Source: Collibacillus ludicampi (GTDB lineage: Bacteria > Bacillota > Bacilli > Tumebacillales > BOQE01). From it: a stretch of DNA of 64,000 bases. Both the position numbers and the translations under genes were made by a program. Within the stretch, counting starts at the first letter, position 1. Every line of letters starts with the position of its first letter. Under the pieces are notes generated by a model. The model made no database searches. It was not told where the DNA came from and saw only the letters and a list, made by a program, of their open reading frames with translations. Of this stretch, positions 15,634 through 23,355 are shown one piece after another. The stretch covers positions 1,253,341-1,317,340 of the forward strand of contig NZ_BOQE01000001.1 in assembly GCF_023705585.1 (NCBI RefSeq), written 5' to 3'.

Positions 15634-17151
15634 TTACCCTCCTATCCTCGTGACGAGTGACTGCAACGTCTGGTTGACAAGGTCGCCGAGGATCGCCGGA
15701 TATACACCGATGAGAATGATCATCGCCAAGAACAACACCATCGGAACGTATTCCAACGCAGTCGCATCACGGATACCCTCTCGTGCGGCTCTTACAGGCC
15801 CAAACGTGGTTCGCTGCATCGCCCATAACAGGTACACAGCCCCCAGAATGATACCTAGAGTCCCGCAAGCCGCCAATTTCGGGAACGTGGCGAACGCGCC
15901 CATGAAAGAGAGAATCTCCGAGACGAAGCCGCTCATCCCGGGCAATCCCAACGATGCCAAAGCGCCTGCCAGCAGGAACCCGGAGAGTACGGGCATCGGT
16001 TTGGAAAGACCGCCGAGCTCCCGGATTTCGAGCGTTTCGGTCCGCTCGTAAATCGCACCTGTCAGGAAGAACAGAAGCCCCGACAGAAGACCCGAGGAGA
16101 CGATCATGAACATCGCCCCTTGCAAACCTTCCGGTTTCAGTGATGCCAACCCGATCAAAAACACGCCCATGTGCGAAATCGTGCTGAAAGCCAGCAAGCG
16201 TCTCCAATCGTTCTGTACCATAGCGACCAAAGCACCATAGATAATATTGATCACGCCGAGCGCCGCGATGAGCGTGCCGTAATGCTGTACGGCATCAGGC
16301 AACACGCCCACGCCTACACGCAAGAGCACGTATGCGCCAATTTTCACTAACACGCCGCCGAGTACCATCGATACGGCTGACGGTGCCTGCTCGTGCGAAT
16401 CCGGCAGCCACGTGTGAAAAGGAACGAACGCTTCCTCGATGAGAATCGCCAGAAAGAGCAAGAGGAAGAGTCCTTGACGCATGCCTGTGGAGATCACATC
16501 GGCGCCCGCCTGTTTAAACGTTTGCGCGATCTGCAACACGTCGAGAGTGATCGTGCCTGTCGCATTCGCCGCCTGATAAGCCAAGCCGATGAACGCGATC
16601 AATATGCCGACCGACGCCAATCCACGGTAGATCAAAAACTTGACGGCGACAGGCCCTCTTCGCTCCCCGCCCCAGATCGCCAACAGGAAATACATCGGGA
16701 TCAAAGTCATTTCGAGGAACAGGAAGAACAGGAACAGATCCAGCGCTGTGAAGACCCCGAACATCCCGGTGACGAGAATCAGGAACCAGATAAAATACTC
16801 TTTCGCCCGCTTTTCGATCCGCCAGGAAGCGACGACCGCAAGCACACTGGTCATCGCCGTCAACAGGACGAGCGGCATCGACAATCCGTCAATTCCCATG
16901 TTGTAACTGATCGCGAGGGACTTGTCGAGAAACGCATTACTGATATGGATCCATTCTTTGTTCACCGTGTATTGCATATCAGGCGAGCCTGATTGGAATC
17001 CCGCAAAAGCGACGAGCGCCAACACCAGTGAACCGAGTGTAGCGAGAAACGCCACCGCGCGAATCAGAGAACGGCTTTCACGCGGAACAAAAAACAGAAT
17101 CACAGCGCCCAGCAACGGGAGAAACGTCAGTACGGTCAAGAGTGTGAACAT
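15634..17151 (-). CDS. nuoM: NADH-quinone oxidoreductase subunit M
   Basis: 505 aa from the ATG at 17151, MFTLLTVLTFLPLLGAVILF, the normal NuoM N-terminus, with its own SD AGGGGG seven bases upstream. It is an antiporter-like proton-pumping subunit with FLFFLFLEMTLIPMYFLLAI (key glutamate) and FVPFHTWLPDSHEQAPSAVS. In this sequence the frame is open into nuoL with no stop between them, so the literal reading is a 1133-aa NuoL-NuoM fusion (15634-19035). The junction contains five G, and with four the upstream gene would end TGA overlapping this ATG. Treated here as a separate gene. Confidence 0.9.
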   Translation of the reverse strand: MFTLLTVLTFLPLLGAVILFFVPRESRSLIRAVAFLATLGSLVLALVAFAGFQSGSPDMQYTVNKEWIHISNAFLDKSLAISYNMGIDGLSMPLVLLTAMTSVLAVVASWRIEKRAKEYFIWFLILVTGMFGVFTALDLFLFFLFLEMTLIPMYFLLAIWGGERRGPVAVKFLIYRGLASVGILIAFIGLAYQAANATGTITLDVLQIAQTFKQAGADVISTGMRQGLFLLLFLAILIEEAFVPFHTWLPDSHEQAPSAVSMVLGGVLVKIGAYVLLRVGVGVLPDAVQHYGTLIAALGVINIIYGALVAMVQNDWRRLLAFSTISHMGVFLIGLASLKPEGLQGAMFMIVSSGLLSGLLFFLTGAIYERTETLEIRELGGLSKPMPVLSGFLLAGALASLGLPGMSGFVSEILSFMGAFATFPKLAACGTLGIILGAVYLLWAMQRTTFGPVRAAREGIRDATALEYVPMVLFLAMIILIGVYPAILGDLVNQTLQSLVTRIGG

Positions 17152-19035
17152 CAGAACGCCCCCTACATACAAACTGATCGCCACGAGAATCGCTACACCC
17201 AGCGTTGCGAGAAGACCGTACGTTTGAATCTGGCCGTTTTGCCCATATTTCAAACCGAGTGAGGTTATGTATGCCGCCTCACCGACGAGTGCAACGATGC
17301 CGTCAACGATCCAGCGATCGATAAAGTTGAGAATCTTGCCGATCCACACCACGGGTTTGACGATGACCGAATGATACATTTCATCGATCAGGAACTTGCG
17401 GAACGATAACGTATACAAAGGCCCGGCCGATTGGGCCACCCGTTCGGCGGAAACGGAACGCTTGCCGTACATCATCCACGCAAGCCCGATACCCGCAAGA
17501 CCGATCAGCGAAGTGACAGCCATAAGCCCAGGGCTGGAAGCATACTCATGCCCCCACTCCCCGCCAGAAAGCAGGAATGCCGCCAATGGACTTCCCATAA
17601 ACGGAGCATTGAAAAAACCGGATACCAAGGCGAGAACCGCGAGCAAAACCAGCGGAACCGTCATCACCGCGCCGCTCTCATGCGGCTGCCTTCCGCCGCC
17701 CCCGCGATATTTCCCCGTAAACGTCAGGAAGAATACGCGAAAGATATAGAAAGCCGTGAAAAACGCGGCGATCAAAGAGAGGATCCCGAGGAACGCATGG
17801 CCGCTGGCAAAAGCGGCGCCAACGATCTCGTCTTTGGACCAGAACCCGGCGAATGGCGGGATCCCGGAAAGCGCCAAGGCTCCGAACAGGAATGTCCATG
17901 CGGTCACCGGCATCTTGCGCCATAAACCGCCCATTTTGTGAATATCCTGCGTATCCGTCGCATGTATCACCGAACCGGCCGCAAGGAAGAGCAATGCTTT
18001 GAAAAAAGCGTGGGTCATCAGGTGGAAAACACCCGCCACATAAGCGCTGACTCCGAGGCCCAGCATCATATAGCCAAGCTGCGAAACCGTCGAGTATGCG
18101 ATCACGCGTTTGATATCATTCTGTGTCAAACCGATCGCAGCGGCAAAAATCGCTGTAAACCCGCCGATGACCGCCACGACGGTCATCGCGGACGGCGATG
18201 CCGCAAACAACGGGAAGCTGCGCGCCACAAGGTATACACCGGCCGCCACCATGGTTGCGGCATGAATCAGAGCGGATACAGGCGTAGGGCCTTCCATCGC
18301 ATCCGGCAACCACACATGCAACGGAAACTGTGCCGATTTTCCGACGGCGCCGACAAACACGAGGATCGCTGTCAGCGTAATCAGCGTTTCCGGCGACATC
18401 CATTGGATCGCGAACTGCTTCGCTTCCACCGCTTTAAAAATCCCGTCGTAATCAAACGTTCCCGTCGCCAGATAAAGGAGGACAATGCCGATAAAGAGAC
18501 CGACATCGCCGATTCTGGTGACGATGAACGATTTCTTCGCCGCAGCGGCCGCCTCCGGTTTGAAGTACCAGAAACCGACGAGCAGGTACGAACAAAGACC
18601 TACCAATTCCCAAAAGATATAGAGTTGCAACAGGTTGGGCGAGATGACCAGCCCCAGCATCGAGAAGACAAATAAGCACAAATACTGATAAAACACATGA
18701 AAGCGATCATCGCCATGCATGTATCCCTTTGAGAACAAAAGCACAAGAGTGGACACAAATGTAACCACAACGAGCATTAACGCATTCAATGGATTGACTT
18801 CAAAGCCCATCGTGAGTGTCTGTTTGCCGATCGTCAACCAATGGAACAGATACGGGGCTTCCGTACCGTTCTTTGCAATGGTGAAGAGGATCGGAAGGGA
18901 GACGATAAAGGACGCAAACGTACAAAGCACTCCGATGGCCGTGACGAGACCTTCTTGCGCACGTTTCCCCAAAACCAGCAGTAACAGGTAGGCAACCAGC
19001 GGGAAGAGGGGAACAAGCCAGGCATATGCTACCAT
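17152..19035 (-). CDS. nuoL: NADH-quinone oxidoreductase subunit L, in frame with nuoM
   Basis: About 628 aa from the ATG at 19035 (SD AAAGGTGATCAT). It is the largest antiporter-like subunit of complex I, with LYIFWELVGLCSYLLVGFWY, AQFPLHVWLPDAMEGPTPVS and a C-terminal lateral helix region. No stop codon separates it from nuoM: the boundary reads ISLYVGGVL then MFTLL. If one G of the GGGGG at 17157-17161 were absent, the frame would end VGAF-stop with TGA overlapping the nuoM ATG, as is usual for tightly packed nuo genes. Whether the fusion is real, programmed or a sequencing artefact cannot be told here. Each half is full length. Confidence 0.88.
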
Positions 19036-22548: not shown

Positions 22549-23355
22549 CTACTCGTCCCATACACTATAATCTTTACGCAACGGATGGCCATTGAAGTCA
22601 TCCGGCAGCATGATTCTTTTCAGGTCGGGGTGATCGGTAAACTTGACACCGAGCAGATCGTAAATTTCGCGCTCTTCCCAGTTCGCTCCCGCATACACCG
22701 GCACCAACGAAGGGACTTCCGCGTGGTCACGGGGTGTACGTGTCTTGACCGTGATACAGAGTCCCGTTTTCATTGAGTACAAATACACGACGACTTCGAT
22801 GTACCCCTGCGCCGGATAGTCCGTTCCCGCGAAAGCTTCCGGGTAATCGAATGCCAGCGAAGGTTCTAAGCGAAGGAAATTGACGACCTCTCGCCAATGC
22901 TCTCTTTTGATGACAAACGTCGGCTGATACTTTTTGAGCATCGTTTCCTCAAGAACATCTTCGCCAAATTGCGCGACAATCTTACCTTTCACGAGATCGA
23001 GAACTTTTTGCGCCGCTTCCGTCTTGGCGATCGCTTCAGGTGACGGCTCTTCCTTCTTGGCTGCGGCAGGTTTAGCGGCAGGTGCGGCAGTCGTCGCTTT
23101 TGGCGCGGCCGGTTTCGCAGGTACATCCTTCGTTGCAAGCGCTTCCGTTGCGACGTCCCTTGATTTTTCGGCAGCGGGCGCTTTGGCGTCCATCTTTTCC
23201 GCTGTCGGGTTCTCCGTGGAGTTCGCACCTTTTGCCTCTGCCGATCCCGTTTCTTTCGGAGATTGTGGTTCTTTCTTCGCTTCCGATGTCGAATTTTCGC
23301 CAGTTTTTCCGGAAATTTGATCTTGATCTACCGTTTGTTTCTTTTCATCGCTCAC
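22549..23355 (-). CDS. nuoC: NADH-quinone oxidoreductase subunit C with long N-terminal extension
   Basis: 268 aa. Residues 116-268 are the normal NuoC (30-kDa) fold, ending with the signature [20 protein letters not shown] and [20 protein letters not shown]. Residues 1-115 are low-complexity, rich in Ala, Lys, Glu, Pro and Thr, with runs such as [16 protein letters not shown], probably disordered. GTG start overlaps the nuoB stop (GTGA). Such extensions occur in some Bacillales NuoC. The tail may shield or tether the missing NADH module's surface, which is speculation. Confidence 0.95.

Follow-up and report, generated by a model that had tools for sequence, protein, structure and literature searches.

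A single reading frame across nuoL and nuoM in Collibacillus ludicampi probably reflects two ordinary complex I genes and a small indel at their junction

We analyzed a 64,000-nucleotide stretch of the Collibacillus ludicampi genome (contig NZ_BOQE01000001.1, positions 1,253,341 to 1,317,340; here called the window), in which the complex I genes nuoL and nuoM form a single stop-free frame of 1133 codons. The frame lies on the minus strand (19035-15634), starts with an ATG at 19035 and its stop codon ends at 15634. By comparison with NCBIfam models, the frame encodes a complete NuoL in its first 628 residues and a complete NuoM in its last 505. The match to NuoL model NF005141 spans residues 3-624 (model positions 3-612 of 615; score 834.5, cut-off 556) and that to NuoL model TIGR01974 residues 5-620 (3-628 of 630; score 784.2, cut-off 407.5), while NuoM model TIGR01972 is matched by residues 633-1129 (1-484 of 486; score 655.6, cut-off 263.8). 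The curated cut-offs are thus exceeded across the whole model for both subunits; background on the family was drawn from part of PMC11123200. The length of the frame and the completeness of its halves, both noted in the initial annotation made from the sequence, are thereby borne out. nuoL (17152..19035, minus strand) has 628 codons and no stop of its own, whereas nuoM (15634..17151, minus strand) has its own ATG, 505 codons and a TAA. Each half resembles a gene along its full extent, and the sole missing element is the nuoL stop. The remaining nuo genes tested (C, D, H, I, J, K and N) match their models through the C-terminal end; NuoC (22549-23355, minus strand) additionally carries a long Ala/Lys/Pro-rich N-terminal extension ahead of its conserved domain. 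The genome assembly (7 contigs, 4.09 Mb, main contig 3.99 Mb) contains the identical junction sequence, and its sole match to the whole 1133-residue protein at E <= 1e-100 is this locus.

On the minus strand the junction reads TATGTAGGGGGCGTTCTGATGTTC. The nuoM ATG (17151-17149) is preceded by a Shine-Dalgarno sequence, AGGGGG (17159..17164, minus strand), which overlaps the Gly-Gly codons of nuoL, and by the 7-base spacer CGTTCTG (17152..17158, minus strand). These start signals had been recognized in the initial annotation and are confirmed. The run of five G also described there exists, at 17159-17163 and not at 17157-17161, a difference of two bases. In a sample of long open reading frames from the same genome, a set that includes spurious frames, only 49 of 6530 internal ATGs were in frame with a 6-base Shine-Dalgarno sequence at that distance, and the nuoM start position is the same as in relatives (MFTLLTVLTFLPLLG vs MMGNLLTLIVFLPLLG and similar). 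With such an ATG this rare and its position shared by relatives, the nuoM start signals go beyond chance. It had further been argued that four G instead of five would let nuoL end in a TGA overlapping the nuoM ATG (TGATG), exactly like the other tight junctions of the operon. The arithmetic is right, but the same overlap results when a single base is deleted at any of the 12 positions from -14 to -3 relative to the ATG, so the argument is not special to the G run. The likeness to the other junctions holds only in part: nuoD and nuoH do overlap by one base (TAATG), whereas I/J, J/K, M/N and K/L are separated by 0, 1, 3 and 29 bases, respectively.

The same junction was then surveyed in related genomes, a check which the initial annotation had proposed and which returned a nuoL stop at every junction read. 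Of 90 relative loci entered, 84 had a readable junction, and in all 84 nuoL ends in a stop codon; the six set aside were incomplete or had non-adjacent genes (L010, L025, L073, L074 and L086) or came from a genome already represented (L085, from the genome of L028). Whole-genome searches with the 1133-residue protein covered four overlapping sets, each containing the window's own genome: 101 genomes (95 with a match), a phylum set of 398 (129 with a match at E <= 1e-100), an order set of 14 (all 14 with a match) and a class set of 398 (174 with a match at E <= 1e-120). A first mixed alignment was dropped because NuoM rows had been placed on the NuoL half. Full-length matches rank at the top of the match lists, and among the matches listed only the window's genome gave a full match without a stop. 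A search of plasmid DNA gave no match. The nearest relatives compared share the order but not the family or genus: identity per subunit is 62-79% in these 13 genomes, two of which lose the junction at contig ends, and the only named close loci are from Alicyclobacillus and Brevibacillus. At this depth of comparison the open frame is private among the genomes searched.

Both genes lie in one frame and one alignment in 40 other genomes (5 from the 101-genome set, 29 from the phylum set including two partial alignments, and 6 from the class set), each with at least one stop. The junction was read in 17 of the 40, and none of the 40 shows a fusion, though a single stop is often the sole barrier. 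That genes sharing a frame (e.g. L003, L004, L005, L006 and L007) stay unfused may point to selection against fusion. Several genomes whose reported open frame was longer than 1100 residues despite a partial match or stops were compared as candidate fusions and none is fused: G119, G400, G460, G285 and G439 contain stops, G055 has no nuoM beside the nuoL in question, and the one-contig genome G053 appears to have a frame break within nuoM near a six-G run. This last apparent break (L085, G053:C1:858800-863200, class Bacilli) is independent of the junction, though it affects the same pair of genes.

To locate the length difference, the two possible NuoL ends were compared with those of relatives. 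With five G, NuoL ends LYVGGVL directly ahead of the nuoM Met; with four G it would end LYVGAF. Relatives in the order end in e.g. LYLGGVIG, LWMGGVIQ, LYIGGVLQ and YAVGGVK, and an Alicyclobacillus MAG (L033) ends in SIGGVL. Among the 24 loci whose NuoL is at least 60% identical, 20 carry a GG[VI] tail, three WGV and one RGY, while neither GA at the NuoL end nor an LYVGAF ending was found in any of them. GGV is present in 11/11 readable loci of the same order, contig ends having truncated a further two. Counted across the full set of 84 loci, 29 have GG[VI], 61 have GG and 2 have GA. A tail profile built from 22 relatives scored 96.4 bits for five G, 94.2 bits for four and 96.2 bits for six; it thus favours five over four G by a modest 2.2 bits and cannot tell five from six. 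Many relatives carry six or seven G at this position and end nuoL by an ordinary stop. Since four G breaks the conserved NuoL tail, the G run is probably not the lesion, and since that tail fits five G, the G-rich stretch is, judging from these alignments, probably ancestral, doubling as Gly-Gly codons and nuoM Shine-Dalgarno sequence. The change that removed the stop more likely sits after the G run and ahead of the ATG, a gain of one base or a loss of two, which would make the spacer its likeliest site. At this place L033 reads GTCCTGTAATG where the window reads GTTCTGATG.

The reliability of the assembly was assessed by applying a coding-potential frame model to the window and 80 further 20-kb stretches of the same genome (1.66 Mb in total). 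The model found 83 of 100 planted single-base indels, a sensitivity measured before it was retrained on more sequence; it replaced an earlier scan that had found 23 of 60, and looser settings, which found 94-96 of 100 at the price of many more events, were not used. The scan flagged 16 frame-break events in the window and the first 40 stretches and 22 in the remaining 40. Sorting by eye, a weak point of this analysis, removed normal gene overlaps, transposases, phage-like or low-support events, a comG pair and a degraded ABC ATPase (L108), and left about 11 conserved non-mobile genes, besides nuoL-nuoM, that seem to be split by a frame change. Five of the 11 were confirmed with Pfam, the two pieces falling on consecutive parts of one profile, and are errors or pseudogenes: a DAHP synthase (its chorismate mutase part), BioY, a Na/H exchanger, an SSF symporter and a ketoacyl synthase (in this order, L111:1589-2714, L111:13494-14117, L115:1741-2983, L137:15466-17030 and L148:6924-8191). 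A histidine kinase and an ABC exporter appear split by eye, with Pfam-scanned pieces that do not contradict this, and a ROK protein, a bile-acid-type symporter, an MFS transporter and a penicillin-binding protein are split as judged by eye alone. Two control genomes of the order, sampled at 400 kb each, gave 5 events each, of which one and none, respectively, were convincing by eye. Small indels, erroneous or real, are therefore common in this genome. The split genes may also be real pseudogenes in a sound assembly, because no obviously essential single-copy gene is among them and the DAHP synthase has an intact paralogue.

Taken together, we consider it probable that the locus holds two ordinary complex I genes and that a small indel at their junction, either an assembly error or a recent mutation private to the sequenced strain, accounts for the open frame. 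An assembly error by itself comes close to an even chance, whereas a private mutation by itself is possible but rather unlikely. The ancestral state would have been a tight junction of ordinary, separate nuoL and nuoM genes, from which a small indel would have removed the nuoL stop codon, most plausibly by adding one base or deleting two after the Gly-Gly codons and ahead of the nuoM ATG, and not in the G run. That an indel is the cause, where it lies and whether it is recent or an error are all matters we infer. NuoM would presumably still be made from its intact Shine-Dalgarno sequence and ATG. In support of an indel, nuoM keeps a Shine-Dalgarno sequence, spacer and ATG that would be needless in an old fusion. 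On the other side, the conserved NuoL tail is evidence against a simple homopolymer error, which is the most common type, and the single other frame event found in the window itself is an ordinary gene overlap. Supposing that every one of the 11 breaks is an error, we roughly put the probability that one would open the nuoL-nuoM junction at about 1e-4. Since no NuoL-NuoM fusion was found in the genomes searched and PMC12361115, in the portion consulted, names only CD and BCD, the rate of real NuoL-NuoM fusion seems low as well, perhaps a few in 10,000. These two priors are, again roughly, alike. What tilts the balance to an error or recent private change is that nuoM keeps an intact start and that the open frame is missing from every relative junction read, even where stops are the sole barrier; overall, loss or gain of one or two bases at a tight junction seems to explain the pattern better than an established fused pump protein does.

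A true recent fusion had been among the options of the initial annotation, and an established one, giving a 1133-residue double antiporter subunit in which two proton-pump modules are built together, possibly along with separate NuoM from the internal start, appears unlikely to us. The open frame in the assembly does cover both subunits and preserves the conserved NuoL end right to the Met of nuoM, both domains are built by AlphaFold2 within a single chain (pTM 0.80), and complex I subunit fusions of the CD and BCD type exist according to the consulted part of PMC12361115. The fusion is, however, shared by none of the 84 relative loci and by no other full match among those listed, even where the genes share a frame, and the nuoM start signals are fully kept. 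Further, the models leave almost no linker between the last predicted NuoL helix (codons 602-624; 17164..17232, minus strand) and the first predicted NuoM helix (632-649), although the former is poorly placed both in the fused chain, where residues 591-630 have pLDDT block means of 39-44, and in NuoL alone, where pLDDT is 43-64 over residues 591-628. As summarized in the part of PMC3274701 consulted, truncations that take away the last NuoL helix in E. coli were highly deleterious in one study, with little activity left, and milder in another, in which similar mutants kept 80-85% of quinone reductase activity. The portions searched of PMC12361115, PMC9040806, PMC4938563, PMC3274701 and PMC10212512 describe no natural NuoL-NuoM fusion. 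Were the fusion real, which we doubt, a one-genome lineage would have a linker-free NuoL-NuoM of about 30 helices whose internal start still supplies NuoM, i.e. a dual-product gene in complex I.

A homopolymer error in the G run itself, one form of assembly error and counted within the estimate for it above, seems still more doubtful. Here, the true run would have four G, with NuoL ending LYVGAF and its TGA overlapping the nuoM ATG. Besides the TGATG which four G yields, several of the split genes of this genome, though not the Na/H exchanger, break, as judged by eye, at runs of 4-5 identical bases, and long-read assembly errors are mostly short homopolymer indels according to the part of PMC12007338 consulted. 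The conserved tail outweighs this, with GA in 0/24 and GG[VI] in 20/24 close loci and a better profile score for five G. The suggestion of an indel artefact hence remains likely, but the G run that had been named as its site probably is not. Programmed slippage at the G run, yielding both NuoL and a fusion, is highly improbable: the five G do overlap an SD-like element exactly at the junction, but ending NuoL there requires a +1 shift on a run of only five G, a -1 shift continues 24 codons beyond the nuoM ATG, the surrounding RNA has no excess structure (z = +1.03; 164/200 shuffles at least as stable), and relatives with six or seven G end nuoL by an ordinary stop, so that a slip run with downstream RNA structure and a need for the shift was not found at this junction and slippage was rejected for the +1 requirement and the lack of structure.

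The preferred reading, two genes and a small indel, carries a caution for the interpretation of similar loci. Tight gene junctions sit one or two bases from an apparent fusion, and a homopolymer there need not be the cause. A true fusion would join membrane subunits in a way that the matches listed show for no other genome searched, and would put the accepted place of the last NuoL helix to the test, because NuoM must start directly at the helix end.

Among known systems, the separate nuoL and nuoM genes of order-level relatives such as L008 and L011 and of the Alicyclobacillus MAG L033, with their overlapping or abutting junctions, are like the window in gene order, full subunits, GG[VI] tail, a Shine-Dalgarno sequence within the nuoL end and the place of the nuoM start, and differ in having the junction stop that the window lacks. 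The NuoCD and NuoBCD fusions, as described in the consulted part of PMC12361115, likewise join adjacent complex I genes in one frame, but those proteins are hydrophilic, widespread and lineage-fixed, while the open frame of the window involves membrane subunits in one genome and, unlike them, has no linker and keeps intact second start signals. The gene-changing assembly indels covered in the consulted part of PMC12007338 resemble the present case in a length difference of 1-2 bases at a normal gene and in the presence of other split genes in the genome; they differ in that the window joins two genes instead of splitting one and in that its conserved NuoL tail points away from a homopolymer.
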